Shown piece by piece: positions 24,851 through 62,491 of a DNA stretch of 64,000 nucleotides. The stretch covers positions 25,125,584-25,189,583 of the forward strand of contig JAJEKV010000005.1 of assembly GCA_021234155.1 (NCBI GenBank), read 5' to 3'. Position numbers and translations under genes: made by a program. The notes under the pieces are model-generated. The model made no database searches. It worked only from the letters and a program-made list of their open reading frames with translations, and was not told where the DNA came from. The stretch comes from Isoetes taiwanensis. Taxonomy: Eukaryota > Streptophyta > Lycopodiopsida > Isoetales > Isoetaceae. Numbering within the stretch: position 1 is the stretch's first letter; the number at the start of each line of letters is the position of its first letter.

Positions 24851-25160
24851 AACAGGTTGCTAAAGTAGGAAGAATTTATCCAAATGTCACTTCTAATATG
24901 GCAGAGTATAAGGCATTGATTGCAGGTCTTCAAGAAGCAAGAAATCTAAACATCAGTGATGTAATCATCTTTGGAGACTCTCAGCTTGTCTGCAGGCAAA
25001 TATCAGGAGAATATCAGGCCAAGAGTGAGGACATGATGCAGCTCAGGGATCAAGCTATGCTGGAACTGAAGAATTTTGAAACCTGGGAACTTTGCCATGT
25101 GCCAAGGGAGCAAAATTGTGAAGCAGACTCGTTGTGCAGGAGTGTGCTACTGGAACACTT
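24765..25160 (+). pseudogene. Additional RNase H placed before reverse transcriptase
   Basis: The region shows YLWFDGGVSK (first Asp), AEYKALIAGL (Glu), IIFGDSQLV (second Asp) and NCEADSL (last Asp): a complete D-E-D-D set of archaeal/plant-type RNase H. A frameshift at ~24850 splits it between two frames. In most Ty3/gypsy elements the only RNase H follows reverse transcriptase. Elements of the Tat clade carry an extra one, usually downstream. The upstream location here is the noteworthy point. Confidence 0.8.
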
Positions 25161-26300
25161 GGCTGAGGGAGCAATTCAAGAAGATGAGCTTGAGAAGAAA
25201 GATCTGCAACAGCTATACCCCATCCTGGTAATCAATGCAAGTGAAGACAAACAGGTAAAGGAAATCAAGATCAACAAGAAGGGTCTAGATAGGGTATTAT
25301 ATGTTGGTGATTTGTTCAAAGAAGAGGACAATGCTTTTGTTACTAAATTCTTTGATGATTGGAAGGATATCTTTGCTTGGGATTATGATGAGTTGGTTGG
25401 TGTTGACAAAAGCATTTGTGAGTTTGAAATCAAGGAAGGTATGAAACCTGTTATACAAAAGCTAAGAAGAATTAATGCTTCTCTATTAGGTTTAATTAAG
25501 GAGGAGTTGTACAAAATGAAAGATGCAGGTGTGATTGCAGAAATTGTGAACCCTGAGTGGCTATCTTGCATTGTTCCTGTTGAAAAGAAAAACAAGACTA
25601 TTAGAATTTGCATAGACTATAGAGATCTGAACAAAGCCACTATCAAAGATTGCTATCCATTGCCATTTCTGGAAGAAGTGCTGCATGCTGTAGCAGGGAA
25701 GGAGATTTACTCATTCTTAGATGGCTTTTCAGGTTTTAATCAGATAAGCATCAAGGAAAGTGATCAACCAAAAACTTCATTTATCACACCTTGGGGGACA
25801 TTTGCCATGAAAAGAATGCCATTTGGATTAATGAATGCATCTGCAACATTCCAAAGAGCTATACAATTTTTAGAGAAATGCCTGCCAATATTTTTCGTGT
25901 ATTTTTGGATGACCTTTGTTTGGGAACTTCTCTGGAAAAACATTTTGATATGCTAACCATGCTGTTTGATTTGTGTAGAAAAGGAGGAGTGAGTTTGAAT
26001 CCCAAAAGATGTGTTTTTTATCCTCGAGAGGAGAGTTGCTTGGGCATGTAGTGTCTACAGCAGGAATTCAATATCTGAAAGTAAAGTTGAAGCTCTAAGG
26101 AAACTAGCACCTCCAAAAACCCTCAAGCAGGTTAAAAGCTTCATGGGGATGACTAGCTTTTTGAGAATGTATGTCCCTCATTTTTCCCACACTATGAGCC
26201 CAATTTCTAACCTCACAAAGGTTGGAAAGTTCTCCAAAAGTGAAAGCAAGCATATCCTAGTAAATTGGAATGAGCAATGCCAAGAATCTTTTGACAAGAT
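25160..26300 (+). pseudogene. Reverse transcriptase region
   Basis: Ordered RT blocks are present: IRICIDYRDLNKAT, YSFLDGFSGFNQI, MPFGLMNASATF, and the catalytic FLDD (VFLDDLCLG), then KQVKSFMGM. A frameshift at ~25895 puts the FLDD block in another frame and a further shift occurs at ~26040. This enzyme copies element RNA to DNA from the primer near 22738. The copy is inactive. Confidence 0.9.
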
Positions 26301-26720
26301 CATTGATGCTATTTGCAAATCTATCCTACTTAAACCTCCTGATCTAGAGAAACCCTTCAAAGCTTATATCAGTGTAACAAAAAAGGCAATTGGTTTGGCA
26401 TTGCTGCAAGAGGACCTTGTAATTGCTTTTGCAAGCAAGATGTGGTCTGACACTAAATTAAGGTATCCCAGGTTGGAGAAAAGTGCAGCAGCTTTGATGT
26501 TTTTGATAGAAAGACAAGGACATCTTCTTCAAAACAATCAGGTGCAAGTATTCATGAGGCAAAATCCTTTCTCACTCCTTTTTGCAAAAAAGCAACCAAA
26601 GGCCAAATTGTGCAGGTGGGCTTGTAAGATCCAAGCTTATGATGTTACTATAAAGGTGGTAAAGTTGATCGAGAATCCCAGCTCTTATCTTCCACATGTG
26701 TTGTTTGAGCATGAAGATCA
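26300..26720 (+). pseudogene. Degenerate canonical RNase H (tether-like)
   Basis: This is the usual post-RT RNase H position. The TDAS block that provides the first catalytic Asp reads ISVTKKAIG, and the expected Glu block reads RYPRLEKSAAAL. The active-site residues are lost although the frame is open here. Loss of catalysis in the original RNase H alongside an extra intact one is a known trend (retroviral-like tether), so this may predate death of the copy. Confidence 0.7.
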
Positions 26721-26949
26721 AGAGGGTTTATGTAATGATGACAATTTAACAAACTTGATTTCTTTTGATGCAGAAAATATTGATTGGCAATTTGACATCA
26801 GGAACTATCTGGAGAACAATGAGTTGCCCAAGAATTTGAGTGGCAGTCAAGAGAGAAGATTCAAGGACAAGTGCAAAAAGTTCAGGCTAATTGAAGGGAT
26901 CCTATGCAAAGTTGACAAGGAAGGAGTCTTGTTGAGATGTGTGGATGAA

Positions 26950-28062
26950 GAAGAGGCCAGAATGATAATTGAAGCATGTCATGAGGGAGTGTGTGGAGGA
27001 CACTTTGCAGCAAATACAACTGCAAAAAAGATTCTAAGGTCATGATACTTTTGGCCCACTCTTTTCAAGGATTGTTATGAGACTATAAAATGCTGCCATA
27101 AATGTCAGATCTTTGGTAAGAAAACTCTGCAACCAGCTGCCCTGACTGCCATAACTTCCCCTGGGCCTTTTCAAATGTGGGGATTGGATTTTATAGGTCC
27201 CATAGACCCACCTTCTTCAGCTCAACACCAGTTCATATTAGTTGCCACTGATTACTTCACCAAATGGGCAGAAGCAGTTCCTTTGAGAGAAGCCAATGCT
27301 CAAGCCACTGCAAGATTTCTGCATGAAAATATTTGTGCCAGATTTGGCATTCCTTTCAAAATAATTTCTGATAGAGGCAGCCAATTCATCAACCATACAA
27401 TTGCATTACTGCTGGCCACCTTGAAAGTCAAACACACCAAAAGTTCATCCTATTACCCTCAGGGAAATGGCCAAGCAGAGTCAACTAATAAGACTCTCAA
27501 ATCCATCCTCAAAAAGACCATCAGTGTTTCAAAAAAGGATTGGCACCTAAAACTCCATGATGCACTTTGGGCATATAGAACTACCATCAAAGTGGCCACA
27601 AAACAAACCCCTTTCAGTTTGGTATATGGGATAGAGTCAGTACTGCCTATAGAATTAGAGCTTCCATCACTCAGACTGGCTTATCAGATTAATTTGGAAA
27701 TTGATGAGGCTCTAAAAGACAGATTTGTGAGATTGATGCAGCTTGAGGAGCATAGATATGAGGCTGAGAATGCAGTGATGAGAAAAAAGGCTAAAGATAT
27801 TGCAGCCTTCAAAGCAGCACACAAAATGCAGGGAGTCTTAAAAACAGGAGAGTTAGTGTTGAAGTGGAACAAAGCAAGGGAAGATATAGCATCCAAATTT
27901 GAGAATCTTTGGGAGGGACCATTTGAAGTGATAGGGACAGCTGGCAAAGATTCATATTGGCTGAAAGATATTGCTGATGGCAGAGAATTGATGAACCCTA
28001 TCAACATTGTGCACCTAAAAAGGTATTGGCAACAACATGTTGCCCTTGCTTTGTTTAACTAA
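26950..28062 (+). pseudogene. Integrase with in-frame stop
   Basis: The zinc-binding block (CHEGVCGGHFA to CCHKCQIF) spans an in-frame TGA at 27043-27045 that replaces a residue in the usual GYYWPT-like motif. The catalytic core follows: GLDFIGPI (D), ISDRGSQF (D) and GQAESTNKTL (E). It ends with a GPF-type C-terminal module (LWEGPFEV to VHLKRYW). Apart from the single stop the integrase frame is continuous, so the copy is not very old. Confidence 0.9.
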
Positions 28063-40947: not shown

Positions 40948-43900
40948 CTAAAGGTAAGTATGCCAGATCAGTACTTTCTTCTCTTGATCAAGAGAAGAAC
41001 AATTGTAAGCCATAACAATTTTATTTTGCGCCCACTGAAGAACAATCTCATATGCAGTATCTACGCCCTTAAAGATAAACAACCTCCTTCTCTTCCAGAT
41101 TGACCATAAAAGCCAGCCACATGCGAGATGAAAAGCTCGTCTCCGTAGTTTGGGCCAAGCATCAGGATAGATAGCAAGCAAAATTTGCTGGCTAGATCGA
41201 GACGTGCCAAATATGCCTGCCGAAGCCGCTCACACAAGAAGAAACAATGCTCAATACTCTCAACCCTTTGCTGGCATAAAGGAAAAGAGCTCTGAAATCC
41301 AGTTATCCATTTTATGGACTAACCTGTTGACTCTGAGGCATCTATGTATGGATCACTTGCCACCACAAAACTACTTGAAGCAGCTTATCCCATACCCATA
41401 TCCAAACACTTTTCCATTGTGGCTGAGGGGCCTGAAGATGCCACCTATTAGATGGAGGCAGACAGAAGACACAAACCGCCCTGGCTGGATATCCACCCCA
41501 TACGACTACCTCAATCTGTGAACCAGAATCCTGTGGCAACAATGCAGCAATATGATTCCAGATTACTCTGTCCCATCTGTACAACAAGAACTTTGTTCTA
41601 AATGCTTCCCATGGCATGAGATGATCAGACTCATACCAAGCTGCAATAGTGCTTATACCAGCTGCTATCCATCGTCGTTGTGTATTTGGATGAACAACCA
41701 CACTTAGAGGCACATTCTTTGGAGTGTCCTGCAAAGGAATCCACCAGCATGGAGTGGACAACTGAAGACATGCCTCAGGATTAATATGGAAAAGAGACCT
41801 GACAGTGTCCCAAGCAGCAAGCAACCCCTTTAGAAAGGGGGAAGCATTAGGATACGGATGCATATGATAAAGCAAAGCCCAAGGAAGGAGGGGCTTAATG
41901 GTGGCCTTATGAAATGGGAGACAATGCTGAATCGACTGCACCAACAACCTCAGGCCAGGAGAATCATCCTTACCAATGAAAATTCTCCAAATAAACTTTG
42001 ATATCATCACCTTGCTTTGGAGGTGAAAATCCAACATACCAAGACCACCAGCTGCCTTAGGTCTAATGCATTTCGCCCAAGCTACCTTGACCACCGCTCC
42101 TAACTCATTTCCACCCCAAATAAAATTTCTGACGATACCTGCGGAGCTAATAGAGCAGACGCCATGTAGACATGAGTATTACTAATAACACATTTAGCCA
42201 CAGTGATTCTACTGGGCATGGACAGTTTAGCTGTATTCCACCAGAACAAGTGCTTTTGCAACCCACTAATGATTTCATCCCAAGCATCTGAAGCAGGCGT
42301 GAATTCCAACTGGGATACCAAGCAACTTTGTGGTATTGCCATGCAGAAGAATCTTCCATGGATAGTCCAAAATACAGGGAGGGATGGGACTGTCCAACGT
42401 CCACAAAGCTGTACATTTTTGCCACCCTACAAGAACACCTGATGCTAAGGAGAATGTGTCTAACAATAGCTTAGCATTACGAAGATTCTCAGCCTCGGCA
42501 ATTAGGAACAAAAAAGTGTCATCGGCATATTGGTTACATACCTCTTGAGAACCATCGTCCATTGGGAGGCCTTGAATAACGCCATCTTGGGTAGCCACGG
42601 AGAAGAGCTGGGATAATACTTAGAACTCCCACAATTGTGAAAAGCAAGGGTGCTAAGGGACAACCTTGCCGAATTCCTCTACCCACTACAAAAATATCAG
42701 ATGGCTCGCCCTGGAAAAGGACAGTAGATCTGGCTGATGTATGGAGCTTCATGACATTCCTTGTGAATGACTCCCCAAACCCAAGTGCAAGAAGACACTT
42801 CTCCAAGAAACCCCAATCAACACTATCGTAAGCTTTAGCAAAATCAAGCTTAAGATACATTGCTCTATGACCCTGTAACCGGGCCCAATATATTCCTTCA
42901 TATGCAACAGCCACGTTGTTGAGAATACAACGACGAGGGAGAAAGCCAGATTGTGTTGACGAGATAGCGCCAGCCAAGATGTCTCAGACTCTTTCTGCCA
43001 ATGTCTTAGCAAAGATCTCGTATACAGAGGAAAGCAATGTAATAGGTCGCCAGTCAGAAATAGTATTGGGTTCCTTGCTCTTTGGAAAACCTGTATTCAA
43101 AATCTTGTCAAGGCTCCTAAATCTCTGAAACTCACAAAAGGCATCATATATGTCATCCTCCAACCAGTCCCAGCAAATCTGAAAGAATTCAATAGGAAAG
43201 CCATCAAGACCAGGGCATTTGTCCCTTTTCAAGAGAGCCACAGCTGCTTTTAGATCCTCCTTCACGATATTGGACTCAAGAAGCAACCTCTGCTCTTCAG
43301 AAACAATGCGACGCACCTTAGTCAACACGGCCAATTGCATGTCCTTCTGAAAGGGCAATGGGTGTCGTGCAAAGAATGAAGAAAAGTGATGATGAAGATA
43401 CTGCTTAAGATTCACCGGATCGGAGATAAGAGCGCCATCTGGCAACACCAAAGAATGTATAGAAGTGGCGAGTTTCCTTCTTCTTGCAGCCGCAAAAAAG
43501 AACCTGGTACATATATCTCCGTCCTTGAACCACTGCAACCCTGCCTTCACCTTGGCTTCAGTAACTTTTACAGTTTCCATAGCCTTGATCTGAGATAATA
43601 ACTCCTTTTCTCGACTCCACTAGTATGGCCACGGCCTTGAGTACTTCTAATTCCCGGTACAATGCGGTCAATAGTCCTCTAGCTTCAGCAACTTTCGGAC
43701 TCTCCCATATTCTTTTGCAAATGACTTCACCTGCAGAACAACCATTTGCGACAACCCTGAACATGCCCCCCTACGAGGTGAGAAGGCCCGAGACCAAGTC
43801 CGACTACATCCAAGTTTGAACTCATCATCCTCCAAGTACTTGCAATTAAGCTTAAAGTAGGTCCTGGTAGGTCGATGACAATTAGCCACATCATTAGTTA

Positions 43901-44612
43901 GGAGTTGTGGATTATGATCGCACACCTGAGCTATCCGTAAGATTTGAGCGATTTAAAAATCCGCCAGCCTGAACAAATTTGCACAAGTATTAAAGTATCA
44001 TCTATCATGCCTTGCATAAGCTCTGCCAGCTCCTGTCCAACCATTACACCACGTAAAGGACTGATCACCATCCATCTCTATAAGCTGACCATCATGTAGA
44101 AGGCGTAGCCATTGTTCTCGCTCGAATCCTTGCACCACTTCAGAGCCGCGACCACTTCTATCTCTTTCCAACTCGACCATATTAAAGTCACCAACGAGCA
44201 ACCATGCAACATTCTGCCCAAGCTGAAGAACTTTACTCTTCAGAGTTGCCCATAAAGCACCACGTTGACGAGGTCTATTATGAGCATATACATTTATCAA
44301 ACCCCATTCTTGGCCCTTATCTTTCTATTTGATTATTATCCACCGCCCGAACCTATCTGCTTGAGTAAAAGTGACATCCACATAAGACATCCAAGCAGTA
44401 AGCACATCAGCCTTAGATGCATCAGCAGCAGACACCAAGACATTATAGTCACGTCCAAATACATTAGCTACTTTATGTACATCACCTCGGCGGCATTTAT
44501 GCTCTTGAAGGCAACAAAAGGTCGTAGAAAACTTAGACAGGTAAAGAGACAACCTGCTTCTTTTACTTGGGGAAGAAGCCACTCCCTTCACATTCCAAGA
44601 TAACAGGTTCAT
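40948..44612 (-). pseudogene. LINE ORF2 (endonuclease, reverse transcriptase)
   Basis: It opens MNLLSWNVKGVASS at 44612, the APE-type endonuclease start. LLVGDFNMVELERDRSG and SFTWCNGW follow in the 43998-44300 piece. RT blocks follow: KCPGLDGFPIEFFQ, YLKLDFAKAYDSVDW, GIRQGCPLAPLLF and NQYADDTFLFL, with the catalytic YADD at 42518-42529. The C-terminal part (41342-42094, 40948-41181) has the W-rich zinc-binding region (CGWLLWSIWKRR). At least three frame changes break it. ORF2p nicks the target and copies the RNA in place. Confidence 0.9.
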
Positions 44613-44698
44613 GTGGCCAAAATATTATGTTCCACCTCCATACCAATAGAGCCAGCATCAACCATGTCCATCTCGCTTGGTTCTGAAGGGAGGTTAGT

Positions 44699-46314
44699 TC
44701 ACCTCGTCCTGGAAATTGGCAAGGGGGAGCCTTCTCTCTGTTCCACCCTTCCATTATTTTGTTCAGCAGTTGGTGAGGGAGAGCCTCCTCTCTGCTCTAC
44801 CCCCCCATTATTTTTTTGGGTAACTGGCAAGGGAGAGCCTCCTCTCGGCTCCACCCTTCCATGCAAATTATCAGAATCGCTCATGACATGAGACACATGT
44901 TGACTAGCCTTATTGCGTGCAGCTCTTTTCCAAGTAACATTTGTCCATCCCTCTTGGGCATTTTCATGATGCTCTTGAACATTTTCATGCCGCTCTTGCA
45001 ATTCCTGGATCTTCTGTAACTTAGCCCTAGCATCCTCTTCAAAAGCGGGAGTATGCACAATCTTCTGTGGGATAGTGGTTCTAGCAGCAGATGGAGTAGC
45101 AACAACAGAGGTAGCAGTAGCATTGGCAGAAGGGACAACAGATGGTAAAGGGGACTCAACAAAGGTAGGAGGCATAGAGGAAGAAGGGACCATTGCAGGA
45201 CGATCTCTCTTAGCACGAAAATTTGCAAATAAAGCAAGTCGAGGAAATAAATCACAAGCTGAGGGCCATTGAGCAATTGCAAAGCATACTTCAGAAAGAT
45301 AGGGCCACTTTTCACAACCACACAGTCATGAAGACCGCGACCAGAAGGAAGAGAGGCACAAATTTTAGCACCATCAACAATAGAATGGGCCAGATGAGTA
45401 CCCAGACCATTAGCAATACTGATAAGAAACTCCGGCACCAAGAGATCGGGAGGAAGATTAGGAATAGAAAATCAACATGGCATCCTAAGAGCACGAGTCG
45501 TACCAGGAGAAAATCCAGGCGAGTAAGGCTGGTACAAAATATAATCACTCCACATTGGGTTCACACCACGTGCCACCAGTTGCTCCACAGCCACAGCATC
45601 ATAAAAAACGATAAAAAAGAACTTCTTATCCAGCATCTTTAAAGTACGATAAGGTGGCAACCCTAATCTCCAAAGATGACCAGTCAACCAATAGCCAAGC
45701 TTTCTAGTGTCAAGAAATGCTCCAGTATATTGACCAACCACACTAAACGACAACAAGTTACTAATACACTTCTTGTGTAGGTCATGATCAATCTCGACCA
45801 CATTGTACTGAGACGCTTGAAGAGTATTCTTACACATTTCAGACTGATAGAAAACTTCAACAGGAGGTAACTGAAGCTCCAATTGAGTCTCCTTTGCTCG
45901 CAACTCACCTAAAAGGTTACTGAGATCTCTTTTATTATCCTGAATCATCACATCAATAGCTGTAGCAATACGCACAGCAGACGTAGTTGATGACAAGTCC
46001 TTCTTGATCCAATCACTAAAGCGCTCCCTGCTAGCATTTACTCCTTTAGTTGAGGACCTTCAAGGAAGTGGACGGGACTGATCTTTGTTAGAATTGGCAC
46101 CAGCTGGCGCCGAGGCACCATCCACAGAAGCATTACCGCTATTCAAAGCACTTGTACTCTTCGGTGCACCAGCCGAGTGTGCCAATGCAGGAATATCACC
46201 GTCTTGAAAGACATTCTCACTATAATCCAGAGGGTTAACATGCAATGCCAAATTTGCCCCCTGCACCAGCATGGATACAGGAGGTTTTGCAGGCAGCTTG
46301 GAAGTTGACGCCAT
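44699..46314 (-). pseudogene. LINE ORF1
   Basis: The start is MASTSKLPAKPPVSMLVQG at 46314, about 200 nt from the element's 5' end. The middle (45472-45996) has a helical region followed by FFFIVFYDAVAVEQLVA, resembling the DUF4283-type RNA-binding domain of plant L1 ORF1 proteins. The end (44699-45193) is Ser/Pro-rich with three repeats of RVEPRGGSPLP-like sequence. Frames change between the pieces. ORF1p coats the LINE RNA. Confidence 0.75.
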
Positions 46315-50186: not shown

Positions 50187-50978
50187 ATGGTCGGTTCTCC
50201 TGTCAATGTTAACTTTGAAGATGAGGACTCAAGGAAAAACTTTTTGAGTTAGAGCATGATAATTCGATCATGAGAGAAAAACTTGTAGCTGCCGAGGCTC
50301 GATTTGCTGAGCTGCAAGAACTAGATTCTCTGCGAGTGCAGGTGGCGCAGTTGCAGCAAGCTGCAGGGCATCCGCATAGTGGCATCAAAATGGGTGCCAA
50401 TGTCAAAATTGTATTCCGCTGCTACTAGCGATGCAGATGAACTTTTCGCATGGCTACGTGATTTGAATTCATATTTTGCTAAAACTAAGGATGACGAAGA
50501 CACTCAGTTATATTTTGCTGAACGTCATCTAGATGGATTGCAAAGGACTGGTGGCTGGATATCCAGAAGAATCAGCCAGTCGATCAACCCATTGCTACCT
50601 TTGCGAAATTTGAAAAGCAAATAAAAAATCGTTTTTTGGGTCATAATTGAGAGTGAGATCTTATCGTTGAATGGAATAAGTTGACCGAATAAAACGTGGA
50701 AACTGTTCAAGCCTTCGCCGCACGAGTTTTAAAGAAAGGACTTCAGCTTAGTAAAAATGATACTGAGAAGTCTGAAAAACTCATGGGTGGGGTTCATCGT
50801 TGGGTACGGGTGAAGCTCGATCTGCAAGTTGCCAATCTTTCTTTTAGTGAGCTCTGTAAGATGGCAGAGACAGTAGAGGAGGAAGATGGCCCTCACGGAA
50901 GCCATTAATGCTCAACGTGGCCTCAAGGTATCTATGAAAGAGGCGAGTGATTTTTGGGAGAAATCAATGGGATCTACT
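50187..50978 (+). pseudogene. Gag fragment of the second gypsy relic, cut by the H3 element
   Basis: Frames from 50187 (VGSPVNVNFEDEDS), 50379 (SDADELFAWLRDLNSYFAK) and 50696 (VQAFAARVLKKGLQLSK, LSFSELCKMAETVEEED) together read as a plant gypsy capsid with a coiled-coil start, with stops and frameshifts between them. The sequence ends abruptly at 50978 where the next element's LTR starts, so the H3-bearing element inserted into this gag. Confidence 0.75.
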
Positions 50979-52554
50979 GTGACGTTCCAGCACAGTATAC
51001 GGTCCCAGGACGTATACTGTACTGCCTCGTCACGCGTACACGCCACTCCGACTGACGTGTACGCCGACGTGTAGCCAGGTTAGTAGCCCCTAGGGGGCAA
51101 CTTGCAAGGTATGCGCATTTATTATTAATGTGCACATTTACCAATGTGCACATTTATTAAGGTGCACACCTTTCCATGTAGATGCATTTATGCCACCTAG
51201 CCATTAAAGGCAAGTGGTCCATTCCCAATTATCCCACATCCTTAAAGGGATAATTGGAAACCCTAGCTCTAACCCCTTGTCTATTTAGGTAGGAGGAAAC
51301 CCTAACTTGCCATTTTCGTCCATAGGGTTCTAGAGCTCTGTTTTGGCTGCCCCAGGAGTCAAAACCGCCTCCCAGACTCTGTCTAAGCGAATTGCACCAT
51401 TAGTTTTCCTTGATTCGAGCAGTTCAGCAGGATGGTCGAATTCAGAGCAGGAGGAGCGAGCCAAGGATAAGGTATTTAGTCAATTTAATAGCCTAAACCG
51501 TCTTTCAGTCATTGAGTCAGTAGGTTTAGCCTATTAAATTGCCCATAGCAGCTATCTAGATCTCTAGATACCAGACTCTAACTAAAGAACCTAACTCTAT
51601 GATATAGATTAGATCTAGTTCTTTAGTTCTTCTGTGATGTATATGGATGATGTATCTCTGTGAACTCCTTGTATCGGGAAGGAGGGTAGAGACCCCAAGC
51701 CTAGTAGTTGATGCTCCTAGTTAGCCTCTCTAGCACACTATAGATTCGGCCTGTGCACAAGAGCCACACCTGGTTGTGGGTGACGGGGCCAGACTGGCTT
51801 ATAAAGAGGTTCGTGTTCTGACTCTTGAACGATCCCTCTGGTGTGTAAAGTCTATTGGGGATCATTGTGGACTAGGTCTAATGGCTTGCCACTGCGTGTG
51901 GGCAAGGCATGGGCTCGACACCCGTGGAGTGATGCGTCACTCTCCAGTGGGTTAAGCCGAATAAGGGCAGTGGCCCTCTAGTCACCTTGAGTCAGCATGT
52001 AGATCTCTGGAGGGAATGATCCCTACCTGCCCCATCGAAACTGGGGAGATGCAACCCAGGAATAGCCCCTTTGGCTATGCATCCGACGGGCTACAGTCAG
52101 GTCCCAACACTTTTCAGCCTATTCTGCAAAGTGTGCACAGGAGGGGCGGATGGAGTGGACAACCCTAAGCCATGTTCTTATGCCAGCCAAATCCATTGCC
52201 ATGAATTCTGTCTGCAATGACCTGGAGACCCAAGCCGTCAGTCATTCCTTCGAGTCTGAGCCTTGGGTAGGAACCCATATGCATTGTGCTGATCCTTGTC
52301 TATGCAGATGTTGATGTACCACCCTTCGAGGTAGATATGTGATTATGTTGTATACTGACATGTATGTTTACGCTTCCGCAGCTAGGTAGGTCCTGAGGGA
52401 GACGGGGTAAAATGACCCCTTCACTCTTCCCACTGGGGACCCAGTGCGGTCACAGTGATATGTGGAGGGCCCTGTATCAGTATGGAGCTGGTATGGGGGA
52501 TGAACTCCTGTTTGCATACGGTGAGTGCACCGTATACGAGTAGGGGACATCACA
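50979..52554 (+). repeat. 5' LTR of the H3-bearing element
   Basis: A 1576-bp LTR starting TGTGACG and ending CACA. Near its start are inverted words ACAGTATAC and GTATACTGT, and repeated gtgcacattta words follow at about 51118-51170. The first 623 bp can be compared with the 3' LTR: I count about ten substitutions and one indel, several being CG to TG or CA changes. A 64-codon frame at 51343 recurs in the other LTR and is not a gene. Confidence 0.95.
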
Positions 52555-52555
52555 G

Positions 52556-52567
52556 TGGTATCAGAGC
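52556..52567 (+). other. Primer binding site, initiator-Met tRNA type
   Basis: TGGTATCAGAGC begins two bases after the LTR end and matches the complement of plant initiator Met-tRNA 3' end. It fixes the LTR boundary and the element's orientation. Confidence 0.95.
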
Positions 52568-52760: not shown

Positions 52761-52827
52761 GTCTCACACGTCGCGCCAGGACAGATAATGAAAATCTCAT
52801 TTTCGGGCTGGGCGCAACGTGTGAGAC
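52761..52827 (+). promoter_or_regulatory. 67-nt inverted repeat, copy 1
   Basis: The arms are GTCTCACACGT-C-GCGCC-AG and its complement CTGGGCGCAACGTGTGAGAC. The centre, with AATGAAAA and CATTTTC words, is itself partly self-complementary, so the whole can fold into one long hairpin. The same element occurs at 52976, 54763 and 54963. Copy 1 and copy 2 precede the histone-like gene. Confidence 0.85.
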
Positions 52828-52975
52828 ATTGAGCCCAAAACACACTAAAAAGTCATGAATTTCAGAAAAATAATTTGGTAATTCTAATTTTAAGCTAAGA
52901 ATTAGCTAGAATTAGTATGTTACATTCTTAAAAACATGCTTAGAATGTATAAGATTTAGCATTGGAATCCACCAT

Positions 52976-53042
52976 GTCTCGCACGTCGCGCCAGGACCAA
53001 AAATGAAACTCTCATTTTCAGTCTGGGCGCAATGTGTGAGAC
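52976..53042 (+). promoter_or_regulatory. 67-nt inverted repeat, copy 2
   Basis: Same structure as copy 1 with a few changes (GTCTCGCACGT, GCAATGTGTGAGAC). It lies 215 nt after copy 1 and about 90 nt before the TATAAATA box of the histone-like gene. Each arm holds an ACGT core, so protein binding as DNA is as plausible as an RNA hairpin. Confidence 0.85.
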
Positions 53043-53132
53043 CATGAGGGTAGAAATGCTTAAATTTAGGAGTTTTAGGTGTCTTAAGTGACCCAAAAGG
53101 GTAGTTTGAAATTTGACCTAAAATGGCCCGTC

Positions 53133-53140
53133 TATAAATA
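53133..53140 (+). promoter_or_regulatory. TATA box of the histone-like gene
   Basis: TATAAATA in the context tctataaatagatg lies 102 nt upstream of the ATG at 53242. An equivalent box with the same octamer precedes the second extra gene at 55221, at a similar distance from its ATG (114 nt). The repetition argues for a real internal promoter. Confidence 0.7.
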
Positions 53141-53241
53141 GATGTAGAACCCCCCTCATTTCCACGTTCTTCCTTAGAAATCTGCTCTCGTTTGCCAAGG
53201 CGATCTTCTGGCGCACAGCTCGGACCAACGATCTGTCAAAT

Positions 53242-54618
53242 ATGGCCCGGACGAAGCAGACCGCTAGAGTCCCTCCAGGTGTTACTTCTCCCAGCGCCCT
53301 AGCCCAAGACATGCTTCGACAGCGTGCCGCTCAGCAAGGAGGTCAACCTTCGACAAGCGAGGGAGAGTTATCCAAGGAGCACTCCAGCAACATCAACGAC
53401 CAAGAAGGGGGTGACACAGAGGTAGAGGAGGATGCCCACTCCGACGCCGGAACAGAAGTCCAGGATGAAGAGCAGCCGGACGTTATGCAAGAAATCCTTG
53501 AAGAAGTGGCAAGGAAGGAGAAAGAAGAAGAAGAGCGGGCCGAGGAGGAAAAGAAGAAGAAAAAAGAACAAGATCGGGCGGCCGAGCAACGCGAAGAGCA
53601 GAGGTAGCCGACTCCCGAGCCAACAATCGAGGAGCAAGTCGAAGCTTGGGTTCGAGAGAAGGAGGCCGAGGAGCGAGAGGAACAGAGGGAGCCGGGGCTC
53701 GAACCAGCTGAGGAAGAAGACCTCGCGGCGTTTATCAAGAAGTATGAAGCCAAAGAGCGCCGTCGAGAAAAGAAGAGGAAGAGGGAACAGGAGGAGCCGA
53801 ACACAGCCGAGGAGCCGAGCAAGAAGAAGGCGAAGGCAAAGGGTAAGACGGTGGGCAAAAGAAGAGTCATTCAGGTTAAGCGGGTAAAGGGTTTAGTCAT
53901 TAACGAACCCTCAGCTGACCAGTCCCCACCCTCCACCGACGATTCCGATGAAGATTACGTCCCCAACACCGAAGGGGTAAGCTCCTCAAAACCCCCAGCT
54001 GATGAGCAGGCAGTACCCCACCAGGAGCCGACAATCCCCAACCCGGAGCAACCCGATCAAGTGCAGAAGCCTCCACCTTACCCGACGTGGGATAGGGTCA
54101 AAGCACCGCGGCCACAGCGAGAGGCGTACGTGATAGACCCCGTCAAGGTCTATCAGAAGAAGCTAAGAGAGCACAACGCCCTCATGGTGAAGTGGGAGGC
54201 GTACAACGCGTATTATCATGAGCACAGAGTGAGGGCTATCGAAGGTGGAGTGCCCCCCAAACAGACTCTGAAGCCGCCACCACCGAAGCCCAAGCCTCCT
54301 AGAGCACCAGGGAAGAAGAGGACCGGCAGGAAGGAGACGGAGAGGAGGGCCCTGAAGGAGATCAGGCACTTCCAGCGTAGCTACGGGTTTTTGATCCCCC
54401 GTGCACCGTTCGCCCACCTAGTCCGAGAGGTCATCCAAGAGTACAACACAGATATGAGGGTGACCGACGAGATGTTGCTGGCCCTGCAAGAGGCAACGGA
54501 GCAAAAACTGGTGCAGCATTTTGAAGATTCGACAGCCTGCACAGTTCATGCGAAGAGGGTCACACTCGTGAGGCAAGACATGCATCTTGCTAGCCACATC
54601 AAGGGAGAGCGCCCTTAA
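53242..54618 (+). CDS. Histone H3-like protein encoded by the retrotransposon
   Basis: The frame runs 458 codons, with a single in-frame TAG at 53605-53607. The start MARTKQTAR equals the first residues of histone H3; then VPPG replaces the K9-S10 part. A middle of ~350 residues follows: Glu/Lys-rich coiled coil (about codons 85-190), basic nuclear-signal-like clusters (RRREKKRKR, KKKAKAKGK), an acidic DDSDEDY block, and Pro-rich stretches. The last ~93 codons are a full H3 fold: ALKEIRHFQRS (alphaN), PFAHLVREV (alpha1), LALQEATE and FED (alpha2), HAKRVT, and IKGERP. By hand about 44 of 89 positions equal canonical plant H3, without gaps. Loop 1 has canonical length, arguing against a centromeric H3. 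No introns. This copy is broken only by the TAG. Confidence 0.93.
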
Positions 54619-54762
54619 GATTTTGTAAATAATAGAAAATTTTTGTTAATATAAACAGTTTTTGGCGAAGCAATAGGTGTAATCTTGCTTAATTAGGTTA
54701 AGATATCGAATTCTGGCTTTTGTTTTAGTTAAAATGGACACTTTGAGCAAATTTGAGATGAT
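54619..54762 (+). terminator. Probable 3' end region of the histone-like gene
   Basis: The stop codon is followed within 15 nt by AT-rich 'gtaaataatagaaaa' and 'gttaatataaac' words, which suit a plant polyadenylation region. The next pair of inverted repeats begins at 54763. No histone-type 3' stem-loop is visible. This is inference from composition and spacing. Confidence 0.4.
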
Positions 54763-54829
54763 GTCTCACACGTCGCGCCAGGACAGAAAATGAACTTTTC
54801 ATTTTCGGGCTGGGCGCAACGTGTGAGAC
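54763..54829 (+). promoter_or_regulatory. 67-nt inverted repeat, copy 3
   Basis: Arms GTCTCACACGTCGCGCCAG and CTGGGCGCAACGTGTGAGAC are identical in pattern to copy 1; the centre reads AAAATGAA-CTT-TTCATTTT, a perfect inner hairpin. It is first of the pair upstream of the second extra gene. Confidence 0.85.
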
Positions 54830-54962
54830 CATGCCCCAAAAATGCCCAAAACTGCTCCAAATTGACCAAATAAGGGGTCAATTCTGCCTAACTCGATAAG
54901 TCCAGTAGAATTAGACCCTTACATCAGCCAAATTGGACAAGTTTAACCCATTTAGAGCCAAT

Positions 54963-55029
54963 GTCTCACACGTTGCGCCAGGGCAGAAAATGAACTTTTC
55001 ATTATCGGTCTGGGCGCAACGTGTGAGAC
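54963..55029 (+). promoter_or_regulatory. 67-nt inverted repeat, copy 4
   Basis: GTCTCACACGTTGCGCCAG faces CTGGGCGCAACGTGTGAGAC, so the arms pair even better than in the other copies. It lies 200 nt after copy 3 and 190 nt before the second TATAAATA box. Confidence 0.85.
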
Positions 55030-55220
55030 CTCTCAGCATTTTCTCCACCATGCCATATCCAAATGACCTCCAGCTTGTTGCAATAGGGTCATTAGCTGAT
55101 CTTAGCATGCTCCAACCCTAAAAGTAGTCTTCAAATCCTCATTTTGGCCTCCTAATAGGTCAGAATTGCCCAACTCCAGTTAAATTCTAGGTCATCCAAA
55201 AATTAGGGTTTTCACTTTTC

Positions 55221-55228
55221 TATAAATA
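55221..55228 (+). promoter_or_regulatory. TATA box of the second extra gene
   Basis: TATAAATA in 'ttctataaataggtcc' lies 114 nt before the ATG at 55342. Sequence and distance mirror the box before the histone-like gene. Confidence 0.65.
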
Positions 55229-55341
55229 GGTCCCCATTTCTCACTTAGCACCCTACAAGTTTGCTCTTGACTGTTTAGGCGATTTTCCAGCTCCCTGAGG
55301 CGCTTTTGCATCTGTTTGTTAGTCTCATCTTCTCTAGATCA

Positions 55342-56804
55342 ATGGCCACTGCTGACTTCAGGCGATGGTACAGCGCCAGTGCCCATGCTGCCAAGGCTGA
55401 TGTCAACGACATCTTCCGAGTCTTTAGGAAAGAGGTAGATATCCAAGCAACTCTGCATGCAACCCCAGCATATAGGCAAGTCTTAGCCGAGTTCCAAGCT
55501 AGAGTAGGAGCCTCCCTAGTGCAGCTACCCCCTTGCACAGGCTATTTTGTTCCTCGCCCATCCCTTCAAGCAGCCCTGGGCGATGTTCCAAACATTGCCA
55601 AGTACTTGACCAACAAGGCACAGAGGCTGCCAGATTACATGGTCCTGACAGTTGACAGGACCAAGTATTTTTCCTACACCGCCGCCTTAGCCATTTTCCT
55701 TTCCCACCGTGCTGAAAACCCAATGGGGGGAACCTCTATTCCTCCCATGGAAGTAGACCCCATAGCAGCCTCAGCAGCAGAGCAGATGCTTTTGCAGTAC
55801 CAGCAAGAGCAAGAAGGAAGAGCATAAGAAGAAGAATCGGACGGGCAAGAGTACTCGGAGCTTGACCCAGAGGAAGAACGGCGACAAGCAGAAGAGGAGC
55901 TAACCAGCTTCGAGCGGAGCCGGCAGACCCTCAGAGTCACTCCCCCACTTGGGCTAGGCATCACAAGCCTAGCCCCCATCATCATCGACGGTGAGGAATA
56001 TCTGCTCCTCAGCGACATCCAGAATCTCCCCAAATGCAGGGAGAGGGAGCTCCGGCTTGATGAGTTGCTGCACCAACTATGGCAGCAACCAGACTTGGAC
56101 GACTTCATCGTCCGGGGAGTCTCAGACTTCCCGCTTCAAGTGCGAGAAGCCGACACCTATATAGGGGAGTTGACTTCCGACATCCAGGCCTACAGCAACG
56201 TCAGACAAGTAATGGAAGCTCGAGAGCTGCCATCGGAGGAGGAGTTCTACGCCATCCAGGAACGGATGGGGATCCGCGGCAAGACAACGAGCATTTTGAT
56301 GCCGAGTCCCTCAACACCACCTCCCGCAAGAGGAGCAGGAATCGACATCAGGCGAGTCGACTCGACAATTGCAGACTACCGAGAACTGACAGAGGTAGAG
56401 GTCGACGAATACGTCGGGCGGCATAGAGCTGGAGGCCAAGCAAGTGGAGAATCATCGGCGACACACAATGACAGGTCGCTGAGGTACTATCTCCCCCTGC
56501 TGCTGGATGGGAGAATAGCGGTGATACACCGCAAATTCAGTCTCCGTGGTGAAGAAGGAGTGTTCATGCTCATTGCAAAGCGATGGCACTCGACCTCTTC
56601 GACTTCGCCGTGGCCTACCGACGGCAGGGAAGATTGGCAGTGACCGCGGCTTACACCTCCGACCGCAGGGTAGAGGAGTTGGTGACAGCCTTGCAGGGCG
56701 GGTCATCAACAAACGTCCTCAGGAACTTGGGACGCTCGGTAGGAACGGCCCAAGTTAAGAAGTTCCTCGAGGATAACCCATCCTACCCGCGATTTCAAGA
56801 ATAG
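55342..56804 (+). CDS. Second extra protein of the element, unrecognised
   Basis: The frame starts MATADFRRWYSASAHAAKA at 55342; an earlier in-frame ATG at 55306 is possible but lies closer to the TATA box. It stops at TAA (55825-55827), continues in the same frame to about 56575, then shifts by one base near 56575-56582 and ends at 56804. It therefore represents a ~485-residue protein with two lesions. Visible parts are a helical N-terminal domain with DYMVLTVDRTKYFSY, an acidic Gln/Glu linker after the TAA, a domain with IIIDGEEYLLLSDIQ, and a C-terminal LFDFAVAYRRQGRLAV region. I recognise no family. It is neither gag-like nor clearly a histone. Its shared promoter design suggests it works with the H3-like protein, which is inference. 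Confidence 0.6.
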
Positions 56805-57083: not shown

Positions 57084-58713
57084 ATGACCCCAGAGGAGGA
57101 AATGTCACAGATGAGGACGGACCTTGAGCAGATAAAGGCTTTCATGGCCGCACAAGCAGGAGTGGGTTCAGAGGGCAACGCTCAGTTGCCACAAGCATCA
57201 GCTCGGAAAACAGGAAAGGACAAGAGGAGGAGCAAGAGGAGGAGGTCCCCTAGCAGGAATCCTCCGACTCAAGCTCGGACTCAGACTCCGACTCCGAGGA
57301 AGATGAAGAGCAGGCACCGGACCGTAGGGATGGAAGGCAGAGGGACACCACAGATGGAAGGCAGAGGGATACCACAGATGGACGACAAAGGGACACAAGA
57401 GCCTCTGACTACCAGAAGAAGGTAGACTCTGCATTGGGAAACGTTTGGAAGGCCAGGAAGCTCGAGCAATTCTCAGGCGAGAACAGGTCAGGCATGGAGG
57501 CAGAGGCTTGGCTCGATGAGATGAGTGCGTATGGTAACGCCTATGGCATGAAGGACAAGGATAAAGGCAGAGTGGCAACAGCCAACCTGAAGGGGGCAGC
57601 ACGCATTTGGTGGAAGGGGTACGCCAAGGCCCATGGCTTAAGCAGGGATGCTTGCAGGTTCAGGAAGTTTGCTAAAGCTTTCAAGCGCCACTACGTCCCA
57701 AGAGAGCATAAGTCCAGCATGATGCAGCAGTTCTACAGATTGCAACAGGGAAACAAATCAGTCCAGAAATATACAGAGGAATTCATGAGGCTAAGACTTT
57801 ATGTGCCAAAGTTGGGTGAAAAGCATGTAGTGGAGAGCTATATTGAAGGGCTGAACGACGAGATCCGCAAGCTTGTAAGGGCAATAAACCCTAAAACAGT
57901 ATCAGAAGCAGAATCCAAGGCAATAAGCTTGCAAGGGACGGGGCCTCAGAATAGCGGGCAGAGGCAGCAGTATTACCAGGATAAAGGCAAGGCAACAGGG
58001 AGTTATAGCCCTAGAGCAGCCAGCCCAGGTCCAGCTAGAGCCCCATATGGTGGCAATCAAGGGAAGCAGCAGGAGAAGAAGCAGGTGTCCTTCAAGGACA
58101 AGCAGGAGGAATCAAACTACTCCAAAGCAGTGCGGTCCTTCTTGCAGGCAATGCCCAAGGAAAAGAGGCAGGAGTGCATAGAAAAACAGCTTTGCTTCAG
58201 ATGCTTCCAGCCGGGCCACAGGACAGCGAACTGCCCCTACGTCATGAGTGCAGCGCTAGCGGAGTTGGGAGATTGGGACACTCTGTCTGACGACGACGGC
58301 GAGGCAGCCCGCGACTATATTCAGGGTGAGTGTCATATCTTTGCCGCAATAGACACAGAACAAGCAGAGAACCAGTATAAGGTAATTTCCACAGTAGGGA
58401 AGGCCAAGGCCAAGTCCTTCATAGTCCTGATAGACTCGGGAAGTAGCCATAAATTTGCATCCCCCAGAATGGTTGAAATGTTGAAGTTGAAACCACTAAA
58501 GTCGAAGCTGAGGCCCGTTGTCTTAGCAAGTGGAGCAGTAAGGCAGACGGCAGGCAAGAGAATTAACTTCGACATCGACTTGCCAGGGATTAATATCCAG
58601 ATGGGGGCAGAAGTAATGGGCATTGGCAAGTATGACTTGATCATAGGAATGAAGTATCTTGGACCAGCAGGGGCCATCATTGATTGTGGAAAGCGGAAGG
58701 TGACCTTCCCAAC
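57084..58713 (+). pseudogene. Gag and protease of the H3-bearing element
   Basis: The start region (TPEEEMSQMRTDLEQIKAF, 57084) is in another frame than the main part. That main part is open from 57254, just after a TAG at 57251-57253, through three DGRQRDTT repeats, the capsid (AEAWLDEMSAYGNAYG, GAARIWWKGYAKAHG, YTEEFMRLRLYVP), a CCHC knuckle CFRCFQPGHRTANC (58194-58235) and the protease active site VLIDSGSSHKFAS. The frame is then diverted by the hAT insert at 58714. Gag packages the RNA and protease matures the polyprotein. Confidence 0.9.
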
Positions 58714-59390
58714 CAGGGTTGCCCTTAAGGATAAATTTGTCTAAGCATAATTTAGAAGGTCGGGCGAATAATAGAGTTGCAAGATTAGTTATGCTGGCGA
58801 ATGTTTTCTAGACATGAATTTTTTTTATAGAAATATAGGCGAATCAGATTTAAGTGTCTTTATTTTCCAAGTGCAATTTCTGTGGTGAAATTTGATTCAC
58901 CGGCAATCAAGGACACAAACACATTATAACTATAGTTGCATGATGCAAAACCACAACTTAACCTTTGGAAATGAGAACGTGGCTTATCCTTGTAGATAAA
59001 ACGAATCTATTAAAAGGGGGTTTGTAAAAAAATGCTCTCCGATGCATCCTTAGAAGTATTTGAAAGACAATAGCTACAAAAATAAGTCTTAAAATTATCA
59101 TATGTACCTAGATGGATATGGAGACTAGATTGGATTACGAAGAAAGCCTAGAATATTAGGCGATTCCTTAAGAAATCTTCGAAAATGAGGGTAGAGAATA
59201 AGGCGAATCCATAATTATGACGCTTAGTGGATGTGGCGAATTTTCAAGTGGAGTGAGCTTTGTTTGTAGAAAAGTTGGCTAATTTTATTTTTCTCATCTA
59301 TAACGGATCCTACTAAACCATAGCGTCAAAATTTCTCGATACCCTTAAATATAGCCTTTTGGCGAACTTTCGTCCTTAAGGGCTACCCTG
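58714..59390. mobile_element. hAT-type non-autonomous element inside pol
   Basis: The 677-bp insert is bounded by the 8-bp duplication TTCCCAAC (58706-58713, 59391-59398). Its ends are inverted copies: CAGGGTTGCCCTTAAGGA on the left, and CAGGGTAGCCCTTAAGGA read inward from the right. The 8-bp duplication and CAGGG start are hAT hallmarks. The interior has several ggcgaat/attcgcc words and no transposase frame. Without it and one duplication copy, the protease and reverse transcriptase frames are continuous, which proves it is an insertion. Confidence 0.93.
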
Positions 59391-60960
59391 TTCCCAACGC
59401 CCGACGGCAAGATCATCGAGATCACAGGTAAAGAAGTTGTTCCCATCATGCAGTGTATGTCTTCTAAGCAGTTGTTCAAGTGCATCAAGAGCGAGCAAGT
59501 AGCATACATCTTCAAGCTTGAGATTGAAGAGCCGGAGTCAGAAGAAAGCAAAGAAGACAAGGTGCTCAGCAAGTTGCCGAAGCAAATAGCTAAGTTGATC
59601 ACGGAATTCCATGATCTCTTTCCAGACGAGATCGAGCACCTCCCTCCTTACAGGGGAGTCGAGTGTGAGAGAGCACTCGAACCGGGAACGAAGCCGACAA
59701 GCAAGGCTCCATACAGAATGATGACGCAGGAGCTGACGGAGCTAAAGAAGCAATTGCAGGAGTTGCTCGACCTAGGATTCATTAGACCTAGTGTCTCGCC
59801 ATTTGGAGCGCCCATTCTTTTTGTCAAGAAGAAGGATGGCAGTTTGAGGATGTGCATAGACTATAGGCAGTTGAACAAGCACACCATTAAGAACAAGTAT
59901 GCGCTCCCCAGATCAGATGACTTGATGGATCAGCTCCAAGGGGCAAAGGTCTTCTCCAAAATCGACTCAAGGTCAGGTTATCACCAGATCCGGATAAAGG
60001 AAGACATCCATAAAACCGCCTTCAGAACGCGGTATGGGCATTATGAGTTCACGGTAATGCCTTTCGGCTTATCGAACGTCCCCGCGACGTTCATGAGGCT
60101 CATGAACGACATCTTCAGGGAGTTCTTAGACACCTTTGTGATTGTATTCTTTGACGACATTTTGGTATATAGCAGATCCCTTGAAGAGCACGTACAACAC
60201 TTAAGGAGAGTGCTGGAGAAATTGAAGAGGCACCAGTTGTACGCCAAGTTGTCGAAGTGCCACTTCGCAACGGAGAAGGTGGAATACCTGGATCATGTGA
60301 TCTCAGCAGAAGGAATCTCGACGGATCCCGCCAAGATTGAAGCAGTGATTCAGTGGCCGGCACCGAAGAATGTCCATGAGGTCAGGAGTTTCCTCGGCCT
60401 AGCAGGGTACTACAGGAAGTTCGTGAAGAACTTTGCTAAGATAGCGGCCCCACTAATAGACTTGACGAGGGCGGAGAAGGCGAAAGATTGGGCAGAGCAT
60501 TGGCACAAGAAAGCCCAAGCAGGGTTTGAATTGTTGAAAGAAGCTTTAACAACCGCCCCAGTCTTAACCCTGCCAGACCCAGAGAAAGATAAGCTTGTAG
60601 CCACAGATGCGAGTAAGATAGCTACAGGCGCAGTGCTCATGCAAGAAGAGCGTATGGTAGCGTATGATTCCAGGAAGATGAACGACGCCGAAACGCGCTA
60701 CCCGACGCACGATCAGGAATTGCTTGCAGTTGTCAGGGCATTAAGAATCTGGAGGCACTATCTCTTAGGAAGGAAGTTCCAACTGGATACAGATCATCAG
60801 AGCCTCCAGTATATATTCACACAACCACACCTTAACCTGAGGCAGAGAAGGTGGATGGAGTTCCTTGAAGAGTATGACTTTGATATAGTCTACAAGTCGG
60901 GGAAGCTCAATGTGGTAGCGGATGCGCTTTCAAGGCACCCCCTGACAACTAGAGTGCATT
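59391..60960 (+). pseudogene. Reverse transcriptase and RNase H
   Basis: From the second duplication copy the pol frame is open: [15 protein letters not shown], then RT blocks [41 protein letters not shown], the catalytic FFDD ([10 protein letters not shown], about 60148), and [15 protein letters not shown]. RNase H follows with [14 protein letters not shown] (D), [12 protein letters not shown] (E), [11 protein letters not shown] (D) and [11 protein letters not shown] (D), all present. Domain order and spacing match chromoviral Ty3/gypsy pol. FFDD replaces the more usual F/YIDD or YVDD. This part shows no internal lesion. Confidence 0.95.
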
Positions 60961-62269
60961 GCAATGCAATTTCGACGCTCTTCAGCGACTTCGGGAAGAA
61001 GATTGAAGAGTCCTTGCCAACGGATGTGGACTTCAAGGAAGTATGGGCAAGCTTATATAGGGAAGCAAGAACAGATAAGGAGCGGGAAGCCTTCAAACAT
61101 TATAAGAAGGAAGGCAACCTGTTATACCATAAGAACAAGTTGTGCGTGCCGGAATCATCAGGTGTAAGGAAGTTGATTCTCCACGACACCCACAACAGCA
61201 CAATAGCTGGCCATGCGGGATTCATGAAGACATATTTCAAAGTGCGCAGCAGCTATTATTGGCCAGGAATGAAGAAGCAGGTAGCTCGCTACATCAAAGA
61301 ATGTCAGCTATGCCAGCAGATAAAGGCGGAGCAGCTTCGAATTCCAGGGGCATTGGAACCTTTAGCGGTGCCAAACGCTAAGTGGGAGATCATCAGCATG
61401 GACTTCATCACAGGGCTTCCAAGGACAGTAAGAGGGAAGGATGCCTTGATGGTAGTGGTTGACAAGTTGTCGAAGATGGCACATTTTGTGCCTTGCAGGA
61501 CCACAGATACGGCTATGGATACAACGAAGCTCTTCACCAAAGAAATCTTCAGGCTTCATGGCATGCCAAGGGAGATTATCTCCGACAGGGATCCGAAGTT
61601 CATGAGTGCCTTTTGGCAAGACCTATTTGCGACAATTCAGACGAAGCTATCCATGGGCACGGCATATCATCCTCAGACGGATGGCCAAACGGAGCAGACC
61701 AACAGGATTTTAGAGGATATGCTAGAAACTATGTCTGGAACAAGCAAGGTATGTGGGAAGAATTTATTCACTTGGTGGAGTTTGCGTACAATAGCACCAA
61801 GCAGGAATCATCCCAAATGTCGCCGTTTATGATCAATTATGGCTATCAATGCCTAACTCCAGACACTTGGCACAATCCCGTGTCAAAAGTAGAGGTTTCG
61901 CAGCAGATGTCCGACATGCAGCAGCTCGTGGAAGAAGTTCGAGGGTATCTTCTGGCAGCAAGGAGTCGACAAAAGAGCATCGCCGACAAGCATCGGACAG
62001 TCAGAGAGTTCCAAGTTGGCGAAGACGTATGGCTCAAGATCAAAGTGAAGCAGGCGAAGCTCCGCATCGGAAATTGTAAGAAGCTTGCTCCAAGGTGGGC
62101 TGGACCTTTCAGAATAGTCCAGAGAGTAGGTAATCAATCCTACAGGTTAGACTTGCCAGCACACCTAAAGATTCATAAAGTCTTCCACGTGAGTTTATTG
62201 AAGAAGCATACTCCAAATCCAGACGAGGTCTTGGACACTTCAACGTTGTTAGAAATGACGGAGGAGTAG
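60961..62269 (+). pseudogene. Integrase with a one-base frameshift
   Basis: The zinc-binding H-H-C-C runs from [14 protein letters not shown] to CQLCQQI. The catalytic triad is visible as SMDFITGLP (D), IISDRDPKF (D) and [13 protein letters not shown] (E). At about 61722-61723 one base is missing and the protein continues in the next frame ([14 protein letters not shown]). It then runs through the GPF module (PRWAGPFRIVQRVGN, HKVFHVSLLKKH) to a TAG at 62267-62269. Integrase inserts the element DNA into the host. Confidence 0.92.
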
Positions 62270-62491
62270 CTGGAAATAGTTCCAGAATTGATTCTTGATA
62301 AAGCCTTCAAGAAAACGAGGAGATCGGAGTTTCTCCAATATTTGGTCAAGTGGAAACACTTGCCAGTGGAAGACGCAACATGGGTACTTAAGAAAGATCT
62401 AGTAAAGCAGTACCCACAGTTTCTGGAGCAATGGGACGGCAAGGTCATCTCCGAAGAAATCGGCTCAGGCATGTCGATTTGTGTAGATTAA
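62270..62491 (+). pseudogene. Chromodomain tail of integrase
   Basis: Directly after the TAG at 62267, in the same frame, lies PELILDKAFKKTRRSEFLQY, then LVKWKHLPVEDATW and LVKQYPQFLEQWDG. This is a chromodomain of the type fused to integrase in chromoviruses. In that group it guides integration by contact with histone marks, classically H3K9 methylation. The conserved W of VKW and of DATW are present. The single TAG separates it from integrase in this copy. Confidence 0.88.

Follow-up and report, generated by a model that had tools for sequence, protein, structure and literature searches.

A histone H3-like gene between the primer binding site and gag of Ty3/gypsy chromoviruses in Isoetes taiwanensis

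The window analyzed in this study is a 64,000-nucleotide stretch of the Isoetes taiwanensis genome (contig JAJEKV010000005.1; C1056:25125584-25189583 in the 1,658,258,908 bases and 1110 contigs that were searched). From position 50978 onward, its plus strand contains an LTR retrotransposon with direct LTRs, TG...CA ends, and a 5-bp target duplication, both copies of which were present. Aligned over 1579 columns, the 5' LTR (50978-52554, 1577 bp, TG...CA) and the 3' LTR were 96.9% identical; the latter starts at 63378 and runs past the window end at 64000 to position 64944 (locus L021). The target duplication TCTAC was located at 50973-50977, ahead of the 5' LTR, and was repeated directly after the 3' LTR. 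Just 3' of the 5' LTR we found the primer binding site TGGTATCAGAGC (52556-52567), which we take to be of the plant tRNA-iMet type. Pfam matches ran in the order gag-PR-RT-RH-IN, and the reading frames were broken in the window copy. These matches comprised gag (capsid) and aspartic protease (57434-58744; PF03732 6.7e-18, PF19259 5.5e-16, PF08284 2.2e-9), reverse transcriptase, RNase H, and part of the integrase (59448-61832; PF00078 7.1e-36, PF17917 2.6e-34, PF17921 1e-19, PF00665 1.9e-9), and the integrase C-terminal part in another frame that overlaps the preceding ORF (61493-62269; PF24626 1.3e-21). A chromodomain (62270-62479; PF00385 1.1e-11) followed an in-frame TAG at 62267. The LTRs, the TCTAC duplication, TGGTATCAGAGC, the gag-PR, RT-RH, and IN matches, and the chromodomain together identify the window element as a Ty3/gypsy chromovirus.

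Between the primer binding site and gag, the plus-strand frame at 53242-54618 encodes an H3-like protein that starts with MARTKQTAR and continues through a long, charged arm to an H3 fold without gaps, ending in GERP-TAA. A sequence-only reading of the window had given these coordinates and this placement within one LTR element, and both proved right. The same reading described a full H3-like gene; tail and fold are indeed both there, but the frame is not open in the window copy, in which a TAG at 53605 (codon 122) breaks it. The fold itself (90 aa, RALKEIRHFQ...GERP, 54346-54615, from a 27-copy position table) lies inside the stretch matching the Pfam Histone profile PF00125. In the profile search that the reading had proposed, the 255-aa piece after the stop matched with an E-value of 4.8e-24 and 85 bits (cut-off 26.4), and PDB H3 chains matched the same piece at about 1e-25. 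Its AlphaFold model had helices at the places of aN, a1, a2, and a3, with a pLDDT of about 62-85 in this region against a mean of 63 for the whole model, and one more long helix within the arm. Of 331 Foldseek matches with E <= 0.001, the 50 listed were all histone or nucleosome entries. These results from Pfam, PDB, and AlphaFold/Foldseek indicate that an H3-type histone fold is present in the window-type protein. The estimate that about half of its positions match plant H3 was also borne out, as two copies (L029 and L037) showed 56-58% identity to host H3 over 90 ungapped positions.

The H3 gene and a second gene ahead of gag, ORF2 (55342-56643, plus strand, interrupted by TAA at 55825; 507 aa in the open copy of locus L024), shared one layout consisting of a palindrome pair about 200 bp apart, the TATA box CTATAAATAG, and the ATG. 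Upstream of the H3 gene, the palindromes of about 68 bp were located at 52761-52828 and 52975-53043 and the TATA box at 53132-53141, 110 bp ahead of the ATG; 18 of the 19 other loci have the identical motif. Also on the plus strand, the palindromes recur as a pair at 54762-54830 and 54962-55030, followed by the box at 55220-55229, which lies 122 bp ahead of the ORF2 ATG and is present in 15 of the 19 loci. We infer that the CTATAAATAG boxes drive transcription, and the window-lineage H3 gene probably has its own promoter. Among 76 palindrome instances from the window and the 19 loci, the sequence is conserved and no compensatory changes of the kind expected for an RNA structure were found, which makes a protein-binding DNA site likelier than an RNA hairpin, possibly for an element- or host-encoded factor. 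The 507-aa ORF2 had no Pfam match and a structure model too poor to use (pLDDT 31), and its only relative in the protein search was P0134 (a Logan contig; 46% identity over 99%).

No histone match was found in the other ORFs of the element, and hence no H4, H2A, or H2B partner was seen. This bears on the possibility that the H3-like protein packages the nucleic acid of the element itself, in a particle or as unintegrated cDNA, in place of host chromatin. The arm is basic, the H3 fold is kept, and the giant-virus histones provide a precedent for a core histone encoded by a genetic parasite, as far as PMC9145170 and PMC11222145 were accessible. The giant viruses covered there are, however, DNA viruses with several core histones, often as doublets, whereas the Isoetes retroelement encodes a lone H3; with no partner histone among its ORFs, we consider packaging quite improbable.

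The H3 piece had at least 149 matches in the genome at 73-100% identity among the best scored of 11,553 first-look candidates, a lower bound because the best candidates alone were scored. We analyzed 10-kb stretches around 19 matches together with seven shorter loci and the window, giving 27 copies that were all chosen through H3 similarity. The H3 frame occurred at the same place in the 19 further loci, as the sequence-only reading would predict for a family trait, with the fold in 19 of 19, an LTR and the exact primer motif upstream in 18, and ORF2 downstream in 18. A gag match lay within reach in 15, among which the weak cases were L026 (38-42% match), L022 (28 residues only), and L028 (gag about 4 kb further on). 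This shared placement is incompatible with a chance retrocopy in a single element and, taken together with the selection described below, led us to reject a single chance insertion or a passive retrocopy. The 10-kb locus L023 contains two copies in tandem or nested arrangement, as the first LTR-tail-fold stretch is followed downstream by another. A search of IMG/VR found no relatives.

The MARTKQTAR sequence was exact in 17 of the 27 copies, matched at 8/9 residues in five and at 6/9 in one, and reached 4 or 5 matches, the chance level, in four; the best match in 135 shuffled stretches of 1,750 nt was 5/9. Judged against this control, the nine-residue tail is not a chance occurrence. Among the 22 tails with at least 8/9 matches, residue 9 was V in nine and K in 13, and residue 10 was P in 21 and T in one, so that S10 was never kept. 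In the fold, 44 of 90 positions were identical to host H3 in 90% or more of the copies (27-copy table). The retained residues include C110, H113, R116, D123, L126, I130, R72, R83, K115, V117, and T118, which are presumably H3-H3', H4, and DNA contacts. The changes K56R, K79N, K122Q, and R63P each occurred in at least 25 of 27 copies and A135P in all 25 readable ones; further changes were R129H and F84V-Q85T-S86D. We take R63P, R129H, and F84V-Q85T-S86D to fall at positions near DNA.

That both ends of H3 were kept under selection while the middle was replaced had been proposed from the window copy, and the substitution rates agree, with purifying selection on both tail and fold by dN/dS. In the 13 of 27 copies with an open tail-to-fold frame, pooled NG86 estimates gave an omega of 0.025 for MARTKQTAR (pS 0.614, pN 0.032), a value biased because these frames had to match the tail in 8/9 residues and obtained with synonymous sites near saturation (pS 0.61). 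In the same 13 frames, the fold had an omega of 0.087, and two arm segments had values of 0.27 and 0.17. When no demand was placed on tail or frame, the fold omega was 0.106 in 20 copies. In the 12 copies reaching gag and RT, compared using a local identity filter against misaligned stretches, omega was 0.112 for the fold, 0.225 for gag, and 0.234 for RT, and 0.204 for part of the arm and 0.213 and 0.230 for ORF2. Among the parts measured, the H3 fold shows the strongest constraint, about twice that on gag and RT, although a low H3 omega was favored because every copy was found through H3 similarity.

These values can be set against the idea that the element carries a captured H3 cDNA as passive cargo, which hitch-hikes and decays as in certain fungal hAT elements. 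According to the accessible part of PMC6710886, hAT DNA transposons in Dothideomycete fungi captured plain H3 from a transcript and multiplied this coding sequence to many copies, RIP-inactivated in Pseudocercospora and recent in Pyrenophora. Stops or frameshifts were likewise present in many of our copies, including that of the window, and 14 of 27 were not open from tail to end. The fungal case nevertheless concerns a DNA transposon with no element-level selection reported in the text available, whereas that of Isoetes concerns an LTR element with a rebuilt protein, purifying selection, and a second accessory gene. With tail and fold omega values of 0.025-0.11, below those of gag and RT in the same copies, and a fold omega of 0.046 in a second H3-bearing lineage (lineage B, below), passive carriage seems hardly credible. 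The window element itself was also considered as an H3-bearing hAT transposon, which was rejected since it has direct LTRs and RT-IN, not terminal inverted repeats and a hAT transposase.

A search of the genome with canonical H3 gave at least 15 rows at 96-98% identity, taken as host H3 genes, and at least 135 rows at 71-86% (150 scored of 9,022 candidates). The latter spanned the fold and part of the tail, and many of them were in open frames of 400-500 aa. All 10 loci that we read, eight of the 135 rows and two further loci, contained one other H3 type, which we call lineage B. Its seven full frames (409-425 aa) start with MAITK in five cases and MANTK in two and have a conserved N-terminal domain; the ARTKQTAR start was absent from all seven. 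The lineage B fold is 86-88% identical to host H3 (three compared) and retains K56, K79, and K122. In the seven frames, omega was 0.046 for the fold, 0.10 for the N-terminal domain, 0.23 for the rest of the arm, and 0.15 for the first residues. One copy was followed to its surroundings, where the LTRs were 96.6% identical over 1247 columns and the same primer motif preceded the H3 gene, an ORF2-like gene with one stop, and gag, in this order; TATAAATA was not found upstream of the H3 gene in this copy. Its gag was 60% identical to the window gag over 173 residues, and its ORF2 was homologous to the window ORF2 (hhalign probability 97.1%, E 5.6e-11). An ORF2-type accessory protein is accordingly common to both H3-bearing lineages (window 55342-56643; L042:3796-4971) and P0134. 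Among the host-type rows, we also observed that several of the 15 cluster on the same contigs (e.g., C1025:2980429-3280178 and C445:69967-122473); two rows that were read are presumably H3.1-like (L041) and H3.3-like (L053, with T31 and H87).

A third, large family (P0003-P0133, ENA contigs) was recognized in protein databases by one middle motif, found in 100 of 134 proteins fetched; 50 of these were full length. These full-length proteins, which were selected by the demand for a tail-like start, had the exact MARTKQTAR start in 43 cases, K9 and K14 in 50/50, and S10 in 1/50, the residue being replaced in 49. The middle is about 300 aa long, and the fold is 81-84% identical to host H3 (two compared). 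From the number and divergence of these sequences, we infer that they are element proteins. As another element of the Isoetes genome the family was rejected, since its middle was not detected there: of 95 scored matches of P0010, 94 were confined to residues 333-443, which comprise the fold and its margin, and the remaining match was weak and broken and started at 261.

The near-perfect constraint on MARTKQTAR (omega 0.025) and its exact recurrence in those 43 of 50 database proteins would suit a soluble decoy, in which the H3 N-terminus occupies host tail readers, writers, and erasers and the fold merely titrates H4 or chaperones. The fold constraint, however, is far above that of the arm and more than a tail decoy needs, and lineage B retains the fold without the tail. 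Such a decoy therefore appears unlikely. Because tail and fold are both conserved, a nucleosome protein with an exposed N-terminus fits better than a use of the tail or the fold only.

No homology was detected among the arms of the window type and lineage B and the middle of the database family (hhalign probabilities of at most 0.6%). Of the 13 changed fold positions in lineage B, 10 are changed in the window type too (hypergeometric p 0.015), and Y54F and A135P are identical in lineage B (L042, L043-L048) and the window type, their arms being unrelated. In a tree of 90 columns, lineage B adjoined host H3 (98/75), the database family lay near canonical H3, and the window type stood beside the one CENH3 included (P0001, Quercus; 96/93) on long branches. 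The window type resembles this plant CENH3 in joining an H3 fold to a divergent N-terminal arm, but it differs in its ARTKQTAR start. Loop 1 is longer in CENH3 than in canonical H3, and this was not found in the window-type fold, which is ungapped against host H3 over 90 positions. A host CENH3 was not identified among the 150 matches listed. A clade of the window type and lineage B, when forced, was just rejected (p-AU 0.042), and the H3 of the two lineages may derive from one capture with later divergence or from two captures.

The window element shares LTRs, the iMet-type primer site, gag-PR-RT-RH-IN, and the chromodomain with known chromoviruses and differs from them in having two extra genes, one of them H3-like, between the primer site and gag. 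No such extra genes were mentioned in the accessible text of a plant chromovirus survey (PMC6317226). Plant LTR elements with additional ORFs (PMC7264820) and Gypsy elements of orchids that encode an m6A demethylase domain (PMC9289625) have been described, in the portions of these papers at hand; they have in common with our element an accessory gene retained over many replication rounds in a Gypsy family, whereas the Isoetes product is a core histone that is more constrained than gag and RT. The word "histone" does not occur in PMC7264820, nor in the main text of the genome papers for I. taiwanensis (PMC8566536) and I. sinensis (PMC10541799). Review and survey articles on accessory ORFs and on chromoviruses, as far as accessible, contained no histone-encoding LTR element, and none was described in the titles or abstract openings of the literature searched, which covered only a minor share of subscription papers and preprints. 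Within this literature, the nearest precedent for an H3-bearing LTR element is the capture of H3 by the fungal hAT transposons (PMC6710886).

The chromodomain after the integrase of the same element raises integration targeting as a further explanation, in which the H3-like protein, placed in host nucleosomes or on H3-H4 chaperones, is a landing platform for the integration complex. A variable arm on a conserved fold would suit such an anchor, and chromoviral chromodomains are already tied to histone marks (PMC3350952 and PMC9289625, in the passages available). An anchor would not need an exact ARTKQTAR start, however, and the H3 gene is separate from pol, seemingly with its own promoter. Moreover, as judged by reading, the first and third residues of the aromatic cage are missing from the window chromodomain, which in this resembles group II as defined in the accessible text of PMC3350952; group II has no known partner according to the text available from PMC6317226. 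We regard targeting as plausible but rather unlikely.

The sequences establish where the gene lies, that it occurs throughout the family, that its tail and fold are under purifying selection, and that H3 core residues are retained. Chromoviruses took an H3 gene into their gene set and gave it a fixed place between the primer site and gag. Plants silence LTR elements via histone H3 marks, chiefly H3K9 methylation. The presence of a strongly conserved H3 in two element lineages suggests that they intervene directly in the chromatin by which they are normally silenced. Our preferred explanation, held tentatively and at somewhat under an even chance, is that the H3-like gene is an anti-silencing device working inside the nucleosome. 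In the window lineage, H3 is rebuilt as an H3 N-terminus, a long arm, and an H3 fold. The protein would pair with host H4, host H3-H4 chaperones would deposit it in nucleosomes, and the arm, given its place before aN, would exit between the DNA gyres. Such a nucleosome would display the element-specific arm and an H3 N-terminus in which K4 is kept, S10 and K14 are lost, and K9 is lost in 9 of 22 tails. Chromatin containing the protein, most usefully that of the element itself, could then resist H3K9-type silencing or stay transcribable. Since R63P, R129H, and F84V-Q85T-S86D alter near-DNA positions, incorporation is not certain. Furthermore, K9 is kept in 13 of the 22 tails, and K9 and K14 in 50/50 database proteins, so that the loss of silencing marks does not hold throughout; lineage B, without ARTKQTAR and with K56, K79, and K122 kept, also stands against the anti-silencing explanation.

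In a broader form, which we put forward as possible with the balance against it, retroelements would have made H3 a standard replication gene, perhaps more than once, always as a long element-specific arm on an H3 fold and with the H3 N-terminus in two of three families. Chromatin states would be written or blocked from within host nucleosomes, and part of the H3 pool of the plant would be parasite-encoded. An element-supplied H3, conserved more tightly than the capsid and RT of the same element, would be a direct molecular counter-move to silencing, and the contest between element and host chromatin would become testable at the nucleosome level. Core histones could then be mobile genes as well, and parasites could give rise to H3 variants; anyone annotating histones in such genomes would have to tell host copies from element copies.

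Additionally, other repeats were observed in the window. ORFs at 24002-28062 resemble, by eye, a further Ty3/gypsy element in which an RNase H-like segment precedes RT, and ORFs on the minus strand at 41342-45996 resemble pieces of a LINE-type element, also by eye. Three nearly identical minus-strand ORFs of 168-180 aa, at 3042-3584, 6466-6972, and 7604-8113, form a local repeat.
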